Virus record (IMG/VR): IMGVR_UViG_3300046529_000415 | Location: 1 to 25,267 of that record | Reading direction: 5' to 3' (one strand) | Length of the DNA: 25,267 nucleotides | DNA from: a virus | Shown here: one piece after another, positions 4,419 through 16,380 of the stretch | Layout: each line of letters starts with the position of its first letter | Position numbering within the stretch: position 1 is the first letter of the stretch | The notes under the pieces: generated by a model | Databases searched by the model: none | Seen by the model: the letters and a program-made list of their open reading frames with translations, nothing else | Told to the model about the DNA's origin: nothing | Made by a program: the position numbers and the translations under genes

Positions 4419-5096
4419 ATGCCCAAAATCACCGATATCACGGGCGAGACATTTAATCGACTGACCGTCGTTCGCGCGGACGGTCGCAACAATGATGGCA
4501 AGATACACTGGCGGTGTCATTGCGTTTGCGGCAACGAGACATTAGCGACAGCGTATCAATTAAAATCTGGCCACAAAAAATCTTGCGGATGTTGGAGGGT
4601 TGAGAACGGAGCCATTGTCTCTACGAGACATGGGGGCGCCAAGCGCACGGAAATAACACGGCTCTATAGAATCTGGGGCGGCATGCTCAACCGATGCAGC
4701 AATCCCAACAATCAAGCATTTCCCCGTTACGGAGGTCGCGGCATTTCTGTTTGCGATGATTGGCATTCATTTCCGGCATTTCGCGATTGGGCAGAGAAAA
4801 ATGGATACCAAGACGATCTGGCAATCGACCGCATCGACAATGACGGCAACTACGAGCCGAGCAATTGTCGTTGGGCCACCTACAAAGAGCAGGGACGCAA
4901 TCAGCCGCAGAATCGCGCGGTCATTCGTTCCGACGGACGACGCTTCGCTTATGTAGCGGACGCCGCGCAGGCGACCGGAACGACGACATCGCAGATCGCG
5001 AGCGCAATCAGGCGTAATGGGACTTCTGGAGGTTTCGGTTGGCGGTACGATGAGCAACAACGGCAGCAATCTACTGGAAGCGCCAGCCGCGCCTGA
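4419..5096 (+). CDS. HNH-type homing-endonuclease-like protein with NUMOD-like tail
   Basis: A 225-residue free-standing nuclease of the kind that spreads between phages. An N-terminal Cys cluster (CHCVCG at 33-38, CGC at 56-58) suggests a small zinc-binding domain. The central block (about 82-155) carries RYGGRGI and the degenerate HNH-like core IDRIDNDGNYEPSNCRWAT. Residues about 178-210 resemble a NUMOD1 DNA-binding motif: VADAAQATGTTTSQIASAI followed by GGFGWRY. Base composition is visibly AT-richer than the flanks. AGGAGGG lies upstream of ATG 4419. After Y210 the remaining 15 residues are an out-of-frame reading of the next gene's start, so the native stop appears lost at the insertion edge. 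Nuclease activity is inferred from the family. Confidence 0.88.
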   Translation: MPKITDITGETFNRLTVVRADGRNNDGKIHWRCHCVCGNETLATAYQLKSGHKKSCGCWRVENGAIVSTRHGGAKRTEITRLYRIWGGMLNRCSNPNNQAFPRYGGRGISVCDDWHSFPAFRDWAEKNGYQDDLAIDRIDNDGNYEPSNCRWATYKEQGRNQPQNRAVIRSDGRRFAYVADAAQATGTTTSQIASAIRRNGTSGGFGWRYDEQQRQQSTGSASRA

Positions 5097-5529
5097 GGCT
5101 GAAGCTCTGCTCGAGGGATGGCGCGACGCGCTTGGTCACGCACTCGCGCAAGAACGGAAACAGTGGCAGCGCGGGCTTGATCTGATCGAGGCGCAGGCGC
5201 AAACGACGATCGCCGAACTGCGGGCCAGTAATGCCGAGCTCCGCGGTGAGATTTTGCGGCAGCTCGCGGCGGTGCGCGACGGTGTCGATGGCGCACCAGG
5301 ACCGGCAGGACCGGCCGGCGAGAAAGGCGACGCAGGACTGCCCGGCGAGAAGGGCGAGAATGCCGACGCTATCTTGCTGCCGCCCGAGCTGGCCGAGCAG
5401 GTCGCAAGTGCGGCGCGCCTGTTGCACGAGTTGCCGCCGATCGGCGAACGCATGCCGTCAGGGCGGGTGCTGCGCATCGAGCGGGACGAGAATGGCGCGC
5501 TCGTGCCGATCTATGAGCCGCAGTCGTGA
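5050..5529 (+). CDS. Collagen-like phage protein with coiled coil
   Basis: A 159-residue protein: an acidic N-terminus, a probable coiled coil (about 33-77, with AQTTIAELRASNAELRGEIL), nine Gly-X-Y triplets (78-104, such as GAPGPAGPAGEKG), then a globular tail ending in VPIYEPQS. The coiled coil would nucleate a trimer that the collagen stretch continues, as in other bacteriophage collagen-like fibres. ATG 5050 is preferred because the HNH domain of the upstream gene ends one codon earlier. A longer in-frame start at 5017 (MGLLEVSV) only re-reads the HNH coding sequence. A GGAGG at 5028-5032 is rather distant from 5050. Likely a virion surface or fibre component; exact place unknown. Confidence 0.85.
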   Translation: MSNNGSNLLEAPAAPEAEALLEGWRDALGHALAQERKQWQRGLDLIEAQAQTTIAELRASNAELRGEILRQLAAVRDGVDGAPGPAGPAGEKGDAGLPGEKGENADAILLPPELAEQVASAARLLHELPPIGERMPSGRVLRIERDENGALVPIYEPQS

Positions 5530-6269: not shown

Positions 6270-7051
6270 CCGCCCACCTCGTTAGCGACGAAAACGTCGT
6301 TCACACCACCGAGCAAAGCAGCGGCAAGGTCCATACCAATCATGGCCATCCGATCGTTGGAACGCTGCAAGAGGTCGTGGGCACGCTGGTGGCAACCGAG
6401 GCCGGCGATACCCCAGCGATCACGGGACTGACCGGCCTTTTTGGCACGCTTGCAGCAACCGAAGCGGCCGACACAACCGCAATCGCCGGACTGGCCGGCC
6501 TTATCGGCGCGCTCGCCATAACGGAAGGCGTCGATACCGCTGCCTTTGCCGGAACGATCTCGGCGCCGGCGATTACCGGCGCGCTGGCTGCGATCGAAGC
6601 GGCAGATGTTGCTGCCCTTGCGGGCGCGGTCGGTCTCATCGGTACGCTCGCCGCAACGGACCAGGCCGATGTATTTGCCGCAGCCGGCATCGTCGCTGCG
6701 GCCGGCGAGATCATCGGCTCGCTCGATGCCGTCGAAGGTGCGGACACTGCGGCATTCGCCGGTGTTGTGCCTGTCCCGATTACCATCACTGTCGGCGGCG
6801 GTTACTATCCGCCAGAGAGGCCGCTCCCGGTCGAGGGCGCCGGCCATGGCATTCTGCCCCGGATCGAGGGCGAGGCGCATGGCGTCGTCGTTATTGCAGG
6901 CGAGGCGGCGGCGCTATTGCGCGGCCTCGTTGGCGAAGCGGCTGGATCAAGTGCGGCGCGGCTTATCAACCTCGTGGGCACTGCTTCCGGGCAACATGAC
7001 CTCGTCGAGGATGATGAAGCCGCCGCTATCGTCTGGATGTTGGCAGCATGA
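6266..7051 (+). CDS. Repeat-containing Ala/Gly/Thr-rich protein
   Basis: A 261-residue protein dominated by about six degenerate 20-25-residue repeats (residues about 39-170) with consensus G-T-L-A-A-T-E-A-A-D-T-x-A-x-A-G followed by a variable spacer. The C-terminal 90 residues carry another loose pattern (GEAHGVVVIAGEAAALL) and end in an acidic stretch. An alternating strand/turn solenoid is likely. A related repeat style (VEAASAADxVDG) occurs in the gene at 21380-21808, inside the tail-fibre cluster. Start and stop both overlap neighbours by ATGA. It sits between collagen-like genes and is probably virion-exposed. No enzymatic motif. Confidence 0.8.
   Translation: MTAHLVSDENVVHTTEQSSGKVHTNHGHPIVGTLQEVVGTLVATEAGDTPAITGLTGLFGTLAATEAADTTAIAGLAGLIGALAITEGVDTAAFAGTISAPAITGALAAIEAADVAALAGAVGLIGTLAATDQADVFAAAGIVAAAGEIIGSLDAVEGADTAAFAGVVPVPITITVGGGYYPPERPLPVEGAGHGILPRIEGEAHGVVVIAGEAAALLRGLVGEAAGSSAARLINLVGTASGQHDLVEDDEAAAIVWMLAA
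6380..6776 (+). repeat. Degenerate coding repeats of 20-25 codons
   Basis: Six imperfect in-frame repeats starting at GTLVATEAGDT, GTLAATEAADT, GALAITEGVDT, GALAAIEAADV, GTLAATDQADV and GSLDAVEGADT. The glycine and the acidic D/A pair are the best-kept positions. DNA identity between copies is only moderate, so this is an old or selected protein-level repeat rather than a recent amplification. Confidence 0.75.
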
Positions 7052-7785
7052 CCACTCCTGGCCCGAAATATTCGCTGCTCGACGGGCTTAGTACCTGTCT
7101 TGCTGTGGCCCAGCGGGCGCTCCTCGAGGTGCGGGCGCTTGCACGGACTCCGGGGCCAGAGGGCAAGCGCGGGCCTGCCGGCGAGCGCGGCGAAGCCGGC
7201 AAAGCTGGACCAGCAGGGCCGGCGGGACGTGCCGGCATCGATGGCAAGAATGGCGATCCCGGGCCAGAGGGCAAGCCCGGTGGCCTGCCGGTGGCGCGCG
7301 ACTGGACACCCGGCATCGTCCACTACGCGGGCACCGTCGTCGCCCATGCCGGCGGCGCCTTCCAGGCCACCCGCGACACCGGACAAGCGCCAGGTCATTC
7401 TGACTGGATCTGCCTGGCGCGGCCCGGACGCGATGCCGCGATGCCGACGGTGCGCGGAACCTTCGCCGAGGGCGAAACCTATGCGGCGCTCGACATCGTT
7501 GCACTCGGCGGGTCAAGTTTCATTGCCCGCCAGGATGCCCCTGGGCCGTGTCCGGGGGCCGCCTGGCAGCTTATCGCCTCGGCGGGCAAGCCGGGCAAGC
7601 CCGGCCCGAAGGGCGACCACGGGGCTCCTGGCGCGCGTGGCGAGCGCGGAATGGCGGCGCCGACCATCGTCGGCTGGCGCATCGATCGCGAGGCCTATAC
7701 GGCGCAGCCGGTCATGTCCGACAACAGCGAGGCGCCGGCGATCGAGATGCGGGCCTTCTTCGAGCAGTTTCACGAGGGGCGGTGA
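7048..7785 (+). CDS. Collagen-like protein with two carbohydrate-binding-module-like domains
   Basis: A 245-residue protein. After a short helix (LLDGLSTCLAVAQRALLEV) come about 14 Gly-X-Y triplets (GKRGPAGERGEAGKAGPAG region, nt about 7150-7284), then two tandem modules with the Trp/Tyr/Gly spacing of CBM5/12-like chitin-binding folds (ARDWTPGIVHYAGTVV..WICLARPG and VRGTFAEGETYAALDIV..WQLIASAG), a second run of eight triplets (GKPGKPGPKGDHGAPGARG), and a C-terminal globular part. A trimeric rod with sugar-binding heads is the natural reading: a virion fibre that contacts a host polysaccharide. CBM family membership is inferred from residue pattern only. It starts with an ATGA overlap. Confidence 0.85.
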   Translation: MTTPGPKYSLLDGLSTCLAVAQRALLEVRALARTPGPEGKRGPAGERGEAGKAGPAGPAGRAGIDGKNGDPGPEGKPGGLPVARDWTPGIVHYAGTVVAHAGGAFQATRDTGQAPGHSDWICLARPGRDAAMPTVRGTFAEGETYAALDIVALGGSSFIARQDAPGPCPGAAWQLIASAGKPGKPGPKGDHGAPGARGERGMAAPTIVGWRIDREAYTAQPVMSDNSEAPAIEMRAFFEQFHEGR

Positions 7786-11402: not shown

Positions 11403-11930
11403 ATGCCCACGTCACCCAACGTCGCGAACTATCACATCGGCAAAGGCATCGTCAGCTTCAAGGAAGTCGGCAGCTCGACCTTCACCGATCTCGGCAACGC
11501 GCCGAAGTTCATCTATACGCCCGCAGTCAACAAGAAGGAGCACTTCTCGGCCCGCGAGGGCGTCAAGACCAAGGACTTCACCGCCATCACCCAGATCGGC
11601 GCGACCATCAAGGTTACGCTCGACGAGGTCACCGGGGAGAACCTCGCCATGTTCGCGCTCGCCACGTCGGGCACCGATACCGATGGCAACGTTACGCTGT
11701 CCGGCCTGTCTAAGGCCGAGTTCGTCGGTGAAATCAAGGTGGTCGGCACCAATGATATAGGCCAGCAGGTCGACTTCCTCGCCACCGTCTCGTTTGTGCC
11801 GACCGGCGATTTCTCGTTCATCACCGACGCCGACGATTTCACACTGATCGAGCTCGAGGCCGAGGTGATGAAGAGCCCTGGCGGTGACTTCGGCGTCTGG
11901 ACTATCCGCGACGAAACCCCATCGGCATAA
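11403..11930 (+). CDS. Major tail tube protein
   Basis: A 175-residue protein with a GAGG-type ribosome site and ATG start. The pattern is that of tail-tube/major tail proteins: an N-terminal Gly-rich strand (YHIGKGIVSFKEVGSS), an early LGNAPKFIYTP, a long core with REGVKTKDFTAITQIGATIKVTLDEVTGENLAMFAL, and a final strand pair before a short polar tail. The helix ENLAMFALATSG is characteristic of this family. It lies between the terminator and chaperone genes, the standard siphophage order, and should form stacked hexameric rings along the tape measure. Confidence 0.87.
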   Translation: MPTSPNVANYHIGKGIVSFKEVGSSTFTDLGNAPKFIYTPAVNKKEHFSAREGVKTKDFTAITQIGATIKVTLDEVTGENLAMFALATSGTDTDGNVTLSGLSKAEFVGEIKVVGTNDIGQQVDFLATVSFVPTGDFSFITDADDFTLIELEAEVMKSPGGDFGVWTIRDETPSA

Positions 11931-11940
11931 GGACAACAGC

Positions 11941-12411
11941 ATGGCTGACCTATTGGACATCGCCCCGTCGACCGCGGTCGAGGTCGTCAAGATCGACGGG
12001 TTGCGGGTCAATGTGCGCGGCGTTTCGGTCGACGCGATCGCGTCCATCGTGGCCCGGTTTCCCGAGCTGAAATCGTTGGTCGACGGCGGCTCTGGCGACA
12101 GCTTCCTGCCGCGCCTGATCCAAGGCTGCGGCGCGGCGGTCGGGCCGATCATCGCGGCCGGCTGCGGCCATCTCGCCGACGAAGCCTACGAGCAGCACGC
12201 CGCCAAGCTGCTGCCCGAGCACCAGATGAAATTCCTCAAAGCCATTTTCGGGCTGACGTTCCCAAACGGAATCGGCTCCTTCGTCGAGGAACTGACGGGC
12301 CTCATCGGCGGGGCGGGCGAAGGGGCAAAGACCGTCAAGGTGCGCTTGCGGAAATCGCCCTCGCCGTCGTCGCCCTCGGCCGACGCGGATTCCCGCCCAA
12401 CTTTGCAATGA
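11941..12411 (+). CDS. Tail assembly chaperone, G-like product
   Basis: A 156-residue mostly helical protein with AAGGA before ATG 11941. The first 130 residues look like a G-type tail chaperone that would bind the tape measure (IDGLRVNVRGVSVDAIASIVARF, then EHQMKFLKAIFGLTF, SFVEELTGLIGG). The last 25 residues become Ser/Pro/Arg-rich (RLRKSPSPSSPSADADS), while the -1 frame is open and protein-like there and continues into the next small gene. A longer GT-like product by programmed frameshift is therefore possible. The reading to the zero-frame stop is annotated here. An in-frame start at 11884 inside the tube gene is less likely. Confidence 0.82.
   Translation: MADLLDIAPSTAVEVVKIDGLRVNVRGVSVDAIASIVARFPELKSLVDGGSGDSFLPRLIQGCGAAVGPIIAAGCGHLADEAYEQHAAKLLPEHQMKFLKAIFGLTFPNGIGSFVEELTGLIGGAGEGAKTVKVRLRKSPSPSSPSADADSRPTLQ
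12322..12336 (+). other. Candidate -1 frameshift region in tail chaperone
   Basis: Zero-frame codons here are GGG GCA AAG ACC GTC. A -1 slip at GCA-AAG would keep Lys (AAG to AAA) and enter the frame that reads GALAEIALAVVALGRRG and then joins the 12408 gene without a stop. No canonical X-XXY-YYZ heptamer is present, so the exact site is uncertain. Independent start at ATG 12408 remains an alternative. Confidence 0.35.
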
Positions 12412-12560
12412 CGCTGACGCCGCGCCAGATCGCGGCCTATCTCGAGCTCGGCGAGCAGCTCGATCGCATGGAACGGGCGAACGACCTCGCCATCACCGCC
12501 ATCGCGGCACAGGGCGATCAGAAGGCGATCGAGAAGACGCTCAAGGAGTTGGGGGGGTAG
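12408..12560 (+). CDS. Tail assembly chaperone, T-like extension
   Basis: A 50-residue helical frame (TLTPRQIAAYLELGEQL at the start, then RMERANDLAITAIAAQGDQ, ending KTLKELGG and TAG). It starts at an ATG overlapping the previous stop by ATGA. The same frame stays open far upstream and reads ALAEIALAVVALGRRGFPPN just before the ATG, as expected if this is the downstream half of a G/GT frameshift pair. In siphophages the T part helps bring tube subunits to the tape measure. It may be made alone, by frameshift, or both. After it the + strand operon is broken by a minus-strand gene. Confidence 0.75.
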   Translation: MTLTPRQIAAYLELGEQLDRMERANDLAITAIAAQGDQKAIEKTLKELGG

Positions 12561-12622
12561 AACAGGATTCGTCTATCTGCTTCTTTCGCACTTCGCGACG
12601 CAACATGACGCGCACTCACCAA

Positions 12623-12883
12623 TCAGTGCCCGCACCGATGCCCGTCACACTCGATTCTGTCTTTTTCCTTGGCATCTTGTATCGTCTGCCACTGAAGGTT
12701 TTTTTGGTCGTTGGTGCCGCCATTCCTGAGCGGAATTATGTGGTCAATCACATATTCTCTGCGAGGGCCGGAAGGGGGATTCTCGCGTTCGAACTTCCTC
12801 ACGGCAGACGACGAACGTCCGTCAGCAAAAGCCGGCGCTGTAATGCCCGCTATGATGGCCAGCGCCAAAACGAACTTCTTCAT
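12623..12883 (-). CDS. Small exported HNH nuclease-like protein
   Basis: An 86-residue protein on the minus strand, the only convincing gene on that strand. Residues 1-20 form a clean signal peptide (two Lys, a hydrophobic core, AFA before a likely cleavage). The mature part has the HNH-type core YVIDHIIPLRNGGTNDQKNL followed by QWQT and a late KDRIEC, the arrangement of small exported HNH-motif proteins common in proteobacteria. ATG 12883 is chosen over a longer in-frame reading from 12970 because AGGGGA precedes it and the signal peptide starts there. The gene interrupts the chaperone-tail operon. The 62 bases on its 3' side and 167 bases on its 5' side (12884-13050) hold no other convincing gene or recognisable promoter. 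A periplasmic nuclease or superinfection-exclusion role is only a hypothesis. Confidence 0.82.
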   Translation of the reverse strand: MKKFVLALAIIAGITAPAFADGRSSSAVRKFERENPPSGPRREYVIDHIIPLRNGGTNDQKNLQWQTIQDAKEKDRIECDGHRCGH

Positions 12884-13050
12884 TATTTTTTCCCCTGATT
12901 TGCAGCCCTTTGGCCCTGCAATCGCCGATACGAGCAAGGAGTTACGGTGGATTCGTTGGCTGGGTTTCATGGGATCAAACGTCTACCCAGGCGCCAAAAC
13001 GTCGTCTTGTCATTCCGTGCCACGCAGTTGCTTATTGGTGCCAATCTGCC

Positions 13051-13587
13051 GTGAAGCTCGTCTTTTCTGAGCACGAATCGGCCATCGAGGCGCTGATCGC
13101 GCAGATCCAAAGCCAGGTTGCCGATGCCGAGGCCGGGGCCGTACAGGACGCCGCCAAGCTGGCGGTCACCCTGGGTCGGGCGAACATCGCGGCGGCCGGG
13201 TTCCCGGCTCAATGGCAGAAGGCGTTGACGTCCAAGTTCTTCCCGAACAAAGGCGGCGATCCGGCGGCATTGATCTTCGATACCAGCCGGTTCGCCGGCG
13301 TGTTCGAGCGCGGCGCTAGAATCAGCGGCCGGCCGCTCCTGTGGCTACCACTCGAGGGGAATTTACCGACCGGCATCCATACGCCTCGCGCATACCGCGG
13401 CAGGCTGGTGTCGGTGAACGTCGCGGGTAAGCCACCGCTGTTGTTCGACGCCGGCCACCGGGAGTTGGGCCCGCTGTTCGTCGGAGTGAGCCAGGTCAAC
13501 ATCCGCAAGCGGTTCGATCTCTATCGCATCTTCGCGCAGGCGGCGGCACAGATGCAGGACTTCTACGAAAAACGGATCAAGGGCTGA
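13051..13587 (+). CDS. DUF6441-like minor tail/capsid-associated protein
   Basis: A 178-residue protein between the chaperones and the tape measure. It shows the pattern I associate with phage DUF6441: a helical N-terminus (HESAIEALIAQIQSQVADA), then GRANIAAAGFPAQWQKAL, a central FDTSRFAGVFERGARISG followed by LLWLPLEG, and a C-terminal FDAGHRELGPLFVGVSQVNI with a basic helix. GTG 13051 is taken as start because the sequence becomes protein-like there; upstream in-frame codons to 12910 read as non-coding. No clear ribosome site is present, perhaps because the minus-strand insertion separated this gene from its old leader. The function of the family is unknown. Confidence 0.75.
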   Translation: MKLVFSEHESAIEALIAQIQSQVADAEAGAVQDAAKLAVTLGRANIAAAGFPAQWQKALTSKFFPNKGGDPAALIFDTSRFAGVFERGARISGRPLLWLPLEGNLPTGIHTPRAYRGRLVSVNVAGKPPLLFDAGHRELGPLFVGVSQVNIRKRFDLYRIFAQAAAQMQDFYEKRIKG

Positions 13588-13593
13588 TCATCG

Positions 13594-16380
13594 ATGGCCA
13601 GCAAGACGATAAGCCAGCGCATCACGCTCGAGGGCAGCGATGACATCAAGAAGCAGCTTGAAGCGCTGGGCAAGGCCGGTGAGACATCCTTCAAGCAGAT
13701 CCAGGACGCGGCCCGGAACACCAAGATCGATCCGGCCCGCGTGGATGACACCAAGCAGGCATTCGACCGTCTCGGCACCGCCGGCCAACAACTGGGGACT
13801 CAATTCAAGGCGCTGGCCGAAAGTGTCGTCTCGTTCGGAAGCCAAGGCACCAAGTCGGCCCTCGATGTCGCAACCGGATTACAGAAGACCGCCGCAGCGG
13901 CGCAGCAGGTCGGGAGCGCGATCGGGCAGGCCTCCCAGCAGATCGGCGCATCCGGAGAATCCGCCAGCGCCAAGCTCGTCTCGACAGCGACCGCATTTAA
14001 GCTCGCCGCCGCCGGCGTCGTGGCCGCCATCGCAGCGCTCACGTCGTCACTGACCAAGGGCGCGGTAGAGACCGGCGCCGCGCTCGTCGATCAGGCGGAA
14101 AAACTTAAACTGACCACCGCGCAATGGCTGGAGCTGCGCAAGGCGGCCGCCAGTGCCGGCATATCCGTCGATGACGTTCAAAAATCGTTATCGAAGATAA
14201 GTGGGACGGCGGCTGATGCGAAGGGCGGGATTGCGCAACTGGGAAGTGCGACCGATCAGGCGGTCAAAACTGCAGATGGCGGCACTGTCATCATCAGAAG
14301 GTTCAACGACACCACTACGGATACGAAGGGCAAAGCCAGTGAGGCAGCGACCGAGCTGCGCAAGCTCGGCGTTAGCATGCAGACCATTGCGACCGGGGAC
14401 ACGCTCGCCATCGCGCGAGCCGCTGCCCTGGCCATTAACAATATAAAAGATCCCGCGGCCCAGGCGGCGGCCGGCATCAAGATCTTCGGCGACAATTGGA
14501 AGGACACCATTAAGGTTCTGGTCGCTGCGAACACCGCCACGGTCGAGCAGGCAAAGACTCTGGCGGAGGCCGGAAAGGCCTCGCGCGACTTGAGCGCGCA
14601 GCAGGCCAATACAGCAAAGGCCGTCAAGGGCGGATGGGATGATCTGACAAAGGCGATCCGCGCCACCAAGGATCAGATCGGTGCGGTATTTCTCACTGGC
14701 GCACTGGCGCAGACCGAATGGCTGACGAAGCTGGTCGACGGCTCGCGCGAGCTGCTGAGGATATGGCTGGGGCTTTCAGATCAGAAGCAAGCGACCTTTG
14801 CGTCCGCTCCCGAAGACAGTGCGATCCAGACCACGTTCAAGGTTCTGATCGCGGTCGGTCAGCAGCTCGCCGGGATATGGCGCGATGTTCTGGTGCCGGC
14901 CGGCGCGGCGCTCTTGGGCATCGTCGAGCAGATTGCGGCGAGTTTCGAGGGCGTCTCGAAAAGTCAGGTGGCGGCGTTCTTCATCACGGCGGCGGCTGCC
15001 GCGGTCGCCCTAGCGGTCGCATTCAAAGGCATCGGCTTGGTGCTGTCGCCGTTCACGGCGTTGATTTCCTTGTTCGCCAGCTTCGGCCCCATCCTGATCC
15101 CGCTGGTCGCGCTGGTGGTGCTGTTCTGGGATCAGATATCGGCCGGCGCTGCCAAGGCGGCGGCGTTGATCCCCGAATCGCTGGCGCAAATAGTGGAATC
15201 GTTCAAGCTTTTGTTCGCCGGCGATTTCGCGGGGTTCTGGGCTCAGTTTAGCGCAGCCGCGGTCATTGCATTTCAGACTATCAGCCAGGAAGCGCAGAAG
15301 GTGCCATGGGTGAAGACCCTGGTCGACGGCTTCAAGACAATCGGCGCACAAATCCCGGGGACCATCCAATTGATCGTGAGCGGTTTGATCGCGCTCGGGA
15401 ACGCCGCCACCGGCGTGGCCAATATCATCAACCGCATTTTCGGCACGGAATTGACAGGGACCGATATCGCAGCGATTGCCATTATTGGAACGATGACCGG
15501 CGCTTTTGTAGCGCTGGCGGCGGCCATTGCAATCGTCAACGGCGCAATAACGTTGATGGCGACGGCTTGGGGACTTGCTTCGGCCGGAATGGCTGCTTTC
15601 GGTCTGGCAGCGTCAACGATTAGCATTGTCGGCATTGTAATCGTGGCGATCATCGCCGTGCTGGCTCTGCTCGTCCTTTACTGGCCGCAGATAAAGCAGG
15701 CGGCTATCGATGCAGCCGATGCCATCGATGCCAAATGGCAGGCGCTCAAAGCTACTTTCGACGCTTGGATCACGACGCCAGTCGGCAATGCCTGGCAGTG
15801 GATCAAGGACACGTGGGACGGCATCATAGGCTACATCAGCACCAAGATAGATGAGGGCAAGGCCCTGATTTCAGAATGGGTCACGACCCCAGTCGCGAAT
15901 GCCTTTCAATGGCTCAAGGACAAATGGAATCAACTGTTCGGCGGCAGCGGCACGCTCGGTGCCGACCTTGGCCTCGGCGACATCGGCAGCCACGCAGGCG
16001 GCGGACTGCTGGGCGGTCGCGGCAGCGGCACGTCCGATTCGAATCTGATTTGGGCTTCGCGTGGTGAACACATCATGCCAGCGCGGGCGGTGGCGCAACC
16101 CGGCGTGCTGGCTTTCCTCGAGGCGCTGCGGCGATCGGGCGGCAACCTGCGTGATGTGCTCGACGGCATGGGCCGCTTTGCGCTCGGCGGGCTTGTGCAT
16201 GCGCCGATCGGTATCCCGGCATTCGCCGGGGGCGGCATGAATGCCGTTACGATCAATTTCCCCGGCTTGGCGCCAATCGAGGGTTTGCGCGCCTCGTCTA
16301 GTGTAGTTGACGAATTGCGCAAGGCCGCGGCGTTGGCGCAGGTCAGAAGCGGCGGCAGAAAACCTTCTCGGTACAGCTAG
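13594..16380 (+). CDS. Tail tape measure protein
   Basis: A 928-residue protein whose length should set tail length. The N-terminal 130 residues are polar and helical (TISQRITLEGSDDIKKQLEA). There follow long Ala-rich helices and several hydrophobic segments (about 133-155, 459-512, 625-660 and 675-697, the last with SIVGIVIVAIIAVLALLVLY), as usual for tape measures that cross or contact the inner membrane. Two repeated Trp motifs (WITTPVGNAWQWIKDTW, about 725, and WVTTPVANAFQWLKDKW, about 761) lie 36 residues apart. The C-terminus has GGGLLGGRGSGTSDSN followed by RGEHIMPARAV, a conserved end in alphaproteobacterial tape measures. No lysozyme or peptidase domain is apparent. Confidence 0.92.
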   Translation: MASKTISQRITLEGSDDIKKQLEALGKAGETSFKQIQDAARNTKIDPARVDDTKQAFDRLGTAGQQLGTQFKALAESVVSFGSQGTKSALDVATGLQKTAAAAQQVGSAIGQASQQIGASGESASAKLVSTATAFKLAAAGVVAAIAALTSSLTKGAVETGAALVDQAEKLKLTTAQWLELRKAAASAGISVDDVQKSLSKISGTAADAKGGIAQLGSATDQAVKTADGGTVIIRRFNDTTTDTKGKASEAATELRKLGVSMQTIATGDTLAIARAAALAINNIKDPAAQAAAGIKIFGDNWKDTIKVLVAANTATVEQAKTLAEAGKASRDLSAQQANTAKAVKGGWDDLTKAIRATKDQIGAVFLTGALAQTEWLTKLVDGSRELLRIWLGLSDQKQATFASAPEDSAIQTTFKVLIAVGQQLAGIWRDVLVPAGAALLGIVEQIAASFEGVSKSQVAAFFITAAAAAVALAVAFKGIGLVLSPFTALISLFASFGPILIPLVALVVLFWDQISAGAAKAAALIPESLAQIVESFKLLFAGDFAGFWAQFSAAAVIAFQTISQEAQKVPWVKTLVDGFKTIGAQIPGTIQLIVSGLIALGNAATGVANIINRIFGTELTGTDIAAIAIIGTMTGAFVALAAAIAIVNGAITLMATAWGLASAGMAAFGLAASTISIVGIVIVAIIAVLALLVLYWPQIKQAAIDAADAIDAKWQALKATFDAWITTPVGNAWQWIKDTWDGIIGYISTKIDEGKALISEWVTTPVANAFQWLKDKWNQLFGGSGTLGADLGLGDIGSHAGGGLLGGRGSGTSDSNLIWASRGEHIMPARAVAQPGVLAFLEALRRSGGNLRDVLDGMGRFALGGLVHAPIGIPAFAGGGMNAVTINFPGLAPIEGLRASSSVVDELRKAAALAQVRSGGRKPSRYS

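Follow-up and report, generated by a model that had tools for sequence, protein, structure and literature searches.

Sequence comparison strongly supports the view that the late operon of a family of soil phages carries a swappable moron cassette. In the virus record that we analysed (25,267 bases, hereafter the window), the cargo of this cassette is a minus-strand gene (12623..12883) encoding a predicted HNH nuclease of 86 residues. The insertion of the cassette, its antisense orientation, the signal-like N-terminus of its product, an element shared with other inserts, cargo exchange and a recent spread of the version with HNH cargo can all be read from the comparisons below. We propose tentatively, at a little below even confidence, that the secreted nuclease is exported to the periplasm and cuts entering phage DNA, resulting in superinfection exclusion.

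An optional insertion site in the tail operon

The genes on both sides of the insertion are encoded on the plus strand. Those for the major tail protein (11403..11930; PHROG 807, E 6.4e-19) and the pre-tape-measure protein (11941..12411; PF23789, E 4.1e-11) lie upstream, and the last ORF before the site is a 50-residue chaperone-like one (12408..12560; PHROG 13355, E 9.5e-12). The first gene after the site encodes a DUF6441 protein (13051..13587; PF20039, E 1e-9) and is followed by the tape measure gene (13594..16380; PHROG 3547, E 2.5e-12). A sequence-only reading of the window had the minus-strand HNH gene splitting the chaperone genes from the DUF6441-tape measure block, and the PF23789, PHROG 13355, PF20039 and PHROG 3547 matches bear this out.

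The same reading called the gene inserted and proposed a comparison with phages that lack it. We collected 91 loci (L046–L136) through their pre-tape-measure and DUF6441 proteins; out of 199 loci that were confirmed, the best 80 were kept. Both anchors are present in 85 of the 91; the other 6 were dropped. This left 53 distinct loci, that is, loci not identical in sequence, so that near-copies count separately and one contig may have stood under two locus identifiers before collapsing. Among the 53 so selected, the site between the chaperone-like ORF and the DUF6441 gene holds no gene in 32 and an insert of 259–635 bp in 21; the empty sites show that the gene is an insertion. At the 32 empty sites the flanking genes nearly touch or overlap, with gaps of −11 to 68 bp, most commonly −4.

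All 21 inserts encode a minus-strand ORF with a hydrophobic, export- or anchor-like start at a threshold of 2.0, compared with 180 of 1,006 control windows (18%), these being length-matched antisense windows from elsewhere in the loci. At a stricter threshold of 2.2 the counts are 19 of 21 and 110 of 1,006; the GC content of the inserts is 0.548 against 0.624 in the surrounding loci, and this lower value may shift the hydropathy background of the control.

A predicted HNH nuclease with a signal-like start

The 86-residue product starts MKKFVLALAIIAGITAPAFA, with DG directly after it. This N-terminus has a short positive stretch, a core of hydrophobic residues and an AxA site, and it is on these features, rather than on a dedicated predictor, that we base the call of a Sec-like signal peptide (residues 1–20; codons at 12824..12883, minus strand). 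The Pfam HNH match covers 21 residues (44–64; E 5.1e-4) and, at 20.6 bits, stays a little below the curated cut-off, which is 21.4. The Pfam search of the protein returned HNH models only, with no DNA-binding or NUMOD-type domain besides the HNH core and no DUF4041 or GIY-YIG domain. The GC content of the gene is 0.540, compared with 0.620 for the window. A chance ORF is untenable because distant relatives, at 28–49% identity, keep the same strand and frame. Two plus-strand ORFs across the gene (12605–12898 and 12711–13070) were set aside, as it is the minus frame that the relatives bear out.

In an alignment of 24 family members, residues R23, F31, Y44, V45, D47, H48, I49, L52, N62, W65, K74, D75 and E78 are invariant. 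They include the landmarks of the putative nuclease core, which runs from D47-H48 via N62 to D75 (12659..12745, minus strand). Most members have a hydrophobic N-terminus and several cysteines, of which the window protein retains only C79 and C84. An AlphaFold2 model (mean pLDDT 74.5; block means 85–92 over residues 31–80) predicts a helix, strand, strand, helix arrangement with strands at 44–48 and 63–67 and the second helix at 68–81. The top structural matches of the model are HNH nucleases, namely Cas8f-HNH (Z up to 6.8) and the Geobacter HNH nickase Gme (Z 5.5), with colicin E9 lower; none reached a Foldseek E of 0.001 or below. As in these HNH nucleases (PF01844), the predicted core is beta-beta-alpha and carries the DH ... 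N signature, with D47-H48 ending the first strand and N62 standing before the second. Unlike canonical HNH nucleases, the window protein scores under the Pfam cut-off over a short match and its third His is replaced, by A71. The nearby invariant D75 may take the place of this His; it lies 13 residues past N62, which we take to be the position of a metal ligand in colicin E7. On the sub-cut-off match, the 24-member alignment and the predicted fold together, we assign the protein to the HNH nucleases by family and predict that it is active. The signal-peptide HNH protein described by the sequence-only reading holds, with its coordinates exact.

The gene lies in the tail block and does not adjoin terminase genes, the position by which we would class an HNH protein as a packaging one. 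Two other HNH proteins are encoded in the window. One, whose 3' end lies at the left edge (1–110, corresponding to L146:8950-9261; Pfam 27.8 bits), is probably of the packaging type. The other, of homing type, follows the portal gene (4419–5096, plus strand; PHROG 374, E 1.6e-63) and is separate from the exported protein.

A protein 96–100% identical in its best segment is encoded at 13 loci on viral contigs, and a search begun from a phage relative found 29 further, more distant loci, also on viral contigs. One of these (L045) looks like an ordinary HNH protein and lacks the other features of the family. Among 50,697 records of known phages a relative is present in one (MW202512), to which window positions 11500–14500 show no DNA match. 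The family profile matches 2 of 289 bacterial genomes in the class of G001 (Aminobacter), a genome that served as an arbitrary centre of the search. The sole bacterial match of a genome-contig scan (L016) was discarded, its similarity being confined to the signal peptide of an otherwise unrelated protein. A literature search by titles and abstracts, outside subscription papers and preprints, brought up no study that we recognised as dealing with an exported phage nuclease of the HNH type.

The distant relatives are encoded in sense, at many loci overlapping the preceding neighbour by a few bases, and some lie in lysis regions. At L030:4398-6487 the order is holin, DUF5675, a coiled-coil ORF, the HNH relative and then a spanin-like lipoprotein gene, and a lysozyme gene lies 1.7 kb downstream of the relative at L018. 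Such settings favour a nuclease made late, which would, within the lysis programme, degrade DNA freed at lysis or block reinfection of the dying cell. We consider this unlikely for the window protein: its gene runs antisense to the late operon in this lineage, where unrelated envelope cargo also takes its place, and a relative on a bacterial contig (L151) adjoins an integrase-like ORF (by eye). A nuclease acting to block entry could be of use in both the moron and the lysis settings, whereas clearing of DNA at lysis fits the lysis setting only.

A two-box element shared by unlike cargos

Upstream of the HNH gene, on the same strand, lies a single copy in the window of a two-box element (13007..13043), in which TGGCAC-N7-CAA occurs twice, about 21 bases apart. 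It is a candidate promoter or operator and a candidate cassette border, and the leader between it and the HNH start (12884..13006, minus strand) differs in length among HNH carriers. The element is conserved upstream of unlike cargos: 19 of the 21 inserts match it by regular expression; the misfits are L062, which deviates by one base, and L081, which has a single box. Two scans of all viral contigs with exact patterns, derived from the hotspot sequences, gave 21 copies on 20 contigs, every one directly before the start of a late gene on the opposite strand. That gene encodes a DUF6441 protein for 19 copies and the large terminase, TerL, for two. A looser pattern has background, with 32 matches against 7 for the reversed-pattern control on 20 contigs.

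Across 18 loci the element stands 7–13 bases from the late gene and 53–123 bases from the cargo start (323 in L051). Because the spacing varies little on the side of the late gene and widely on that of the cargo, the element may serve the late gene instead. A second cassette speaks to its affiliation. This one (L148:13239-13666, with a near-copy at L169) is on the phage contig that also carries the L092 insert (G302), and lies antisense between terL, identified by the Pfam TerL model, and an ORF that we take for the small terminase, which has no Pfam match. Its element is 3 bases from the terL start and its secreted-protein gene is 83% identical to the cargo of L112. The neighbour differs between the two sites and the element and type of cargo are kept, which indicates that the element belongs to the cassette; a promoter role is only a candidate.

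These observations invite a broader reading, in which the cassette is a system of its own: a two-box element paired with an antisense gene whose product is an exported effector, able to occupy different late-gene junctions (ahead of DUF6441 or of terL), with the effector swapped either in full or from the end of a shared anchor onwards. Near-identical prophages would in this way get different envelope defences, with the HNH member acting, once secreted, as a nuclease that breaks down the DNA of rival phages in the periplasm. We regard this broader reading as possible, though rather doubtful.

A simple scan of positions 12300–13300 found no sigma-70 promoter-like site and no intrinsic terminator-like site. 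The description of the gene as self-contained therefore stands in part: a conserved element does precede it, and no sigma-70 promoter or terminator match accompanies it. We weighed the element as a sigma-54 promoter, TTGGCACG being similar to the −24 box, and rejected this because the −12 box misfits (judged by eye). At L149:7150-8652, a small ORF and the gene for a tyrosine integrase follow a degenerate copy of the element, which might mark genes expressed in the lysogen.

RNA folding after the HNH gene (12540–12640) is no more stable than in shuffled sequences. The missing terminator-like site downstream, together with the overlap of some cargo ORFs with the 3' end of the chaperone-like ORF, would suit a minus-strand transcript that silences tail genes in related phages as they come in, the protein being secondary. 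There is a precedent in STnc6030 of prophage BTP1, an antisense RNA reported to confer exclusion (PMC7067206). All 21 inserts retain their protein features, however, and conservation of the nuclease family at the protein level extends to unrelated contexts, so that we think a purpose in the RNA very unlikely.

Variety and exchange of cargo

HNH cargo is present in 6 of the 21 inserts (L046, which is the window, L053, L065, L066, L067 and L069). Five carry lipoprotein-like or anchored proteins whose last residues are GHRCGGRAASERKGG or close to it (L051, L054, L062, L071 and L092), and another anchored type, in L048 and its near-copy L050, matches PHROG 14275. Cargo is of secreted type in L073, L077 and L112 and a small membrane protein in L072, L076 and L125, and L081 and L094 make up the remaining two inserts. 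One more membrane cargo was found later (L159–L161). The GHRCGG tail seen in some cargos has a match in PHROG 14503 (E 4.3e-6), whose annotation is moron membrane protein. The C-terminus of the HNH protein, GHRCG, resembles this tail. A PADLOC match of the L094 cargo to LmuB (E 0.0014) covers a short stretch and was taken as chance.

As a class these cargo proteins are predicted to be exported, and they are mutually unlike. This would also be expected if they gave the host some other envelope benefit, such as DNA uptake, nutrient scavenging or competition, and had no part in phage exclusion. Such a benefit, DNA scavenging included, has no evidence of its own, and a specific role with DNA is suggested by the HNH member only; we judge it improbable.

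The HNH cassette has spread recently. In nine pairs the HNH gene is 98.1–100% identical in DNA, compared with 74.7–89.9% for the DUF6441 gene and 88.9–99.8% for the pre-tape-measure gene, and it is this far greater likeness of the HNH copies than of the adjoining DUF6441 genes that points to spread of the cassette. Ten full-length near copies were compared with the window gene: two are identical and eight differ at 4–5 of 258 bases, three of these changes being synonymous codon changes. Moreover, L005 and L012 have the same HNH gene beside a different pre-tape-measure allele (72%).

Near-identity amid diverged flanks at one site, and a predicted HNH fold, could also mean that the gene spreads as a homing endonuclease, its product cutting the empty site. 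We find this very improbable indeed. The signal peptide would carry the protein out of the cytoplasm, Pfam gave no match to a DNA-binding domain other than the HNH core, the phage encodes a homing-type HNH protein elsewhere (the gene after portal), and non-nuclease cargo is swapped at the same site. L092 and L094, two phages that are nearly identical, illustrate such a swap. Their flanks are 99.6, 99.3 and 95.4% identical and their cargo genes 54.8%; the two proteins have the first 16 residues in common, a shared anchor, and then differ. Exchange at this site therefore needs no nuclease. The suggestion that the gene behaves like a moron has good support from the empty sites, the antisense orientation, the low GC content (0.54 against 0.62), the exchange of cargo, the upstream element and an integrase on the containing contig.

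Proposed function and known systems

The unit consists of the two-box element and a small gene whose predicted product is exported or anchored in a membrane; it is placed antisense at a late-gene junction in a temperate phage lineage and exchanged between phages, and in the window phage its cargo is a putative secreted HNH nuclease. The element would drive transcription in the prophage and the HNH protein would be exported to the periplasm. There it would act as a nuclease, cutting phage DNA during entry, and the lysogen would thereby gain superinfection exclusion. Several observations count against cutting at entry by a moron product: the scan without sigma-70 promoter or terminator matches, the element spacing that fits service to the late gene, the lack of a PADLOC match for the HNH protein, A71 in place of the third His, and the distant relatives in sense and in part in lysis regions. 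The phage tail may also shield incoming DNA within the periplasm.

Morons are a known kind, and the cassette is one of them. Envelope morons such as HK97 gp15 and lambda bor and lom are small envelope proteins made by the prophage from optional sites among the late genes, and the cassette resembles them in encoding a small envelope protein at an optional late-gene site. What is unusual is the common element and the exchange of cargo; we know of no envelope moron of this sort with the two-box element or an HNH cargo.

Tab of Pseudomonas phage JBD26 is described as a minus-strand moron within the late operon that has its own promoter, is expressed from the prophage and acts on the tape measure protein of invaders (PMC10884400). 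The HNH cassette is likewise a small minus-strand gene inside the late operon, and the second cassette, at L148, adjoins terL too. The described target of Tab marks a difference, as nothing suggests the tape measure protein as target of the exported nuclease. SNIPE, which is reported to cut phage DNA at injection, has a transmembrane helix, DUF4041 and a cytoplasm-facing GIY-YIG domain (PMC13190303). Like SNIPE as so described, the window protein would be an envelope-tied nuclease that cuts phage DNA at entry; it differs in being an 86-residue HNH protein with a cleavable-looking signal.

A single site at which small exported proteins are swapped behind a common element provides a ready list of candidates for envelope exclusion, and L092 and L094 are a matched natural pair for comparing cargo. 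If the HNH member works as proposed, secreted nucleases would join the means by which a lysogen stops DNA entry. The two-box element can be used as a probe for more such cargo.

Lifestyle and host range

A contig of 49,087 bases includes the entire window without a single difference and encodes a tyrosine integrase (Pfam E 6.7e-17), which supports a temperate state. Among 297 genomes from the order of G001, none has a relative of the L112-type cargo and four have a distant relative of the pre-tape-measure protein (31–42% identity). The window phage also encodes, in its early region (L147:2200-2871) and on the other strand than the tail genes, a 223-residue protein that has a signal-like start and no Pfam or PHROG match. 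Collagen-like G-x-y stretches occur in two plus-strand ORFs of the structural region (5017–5529 and 7048–7785 of the window).
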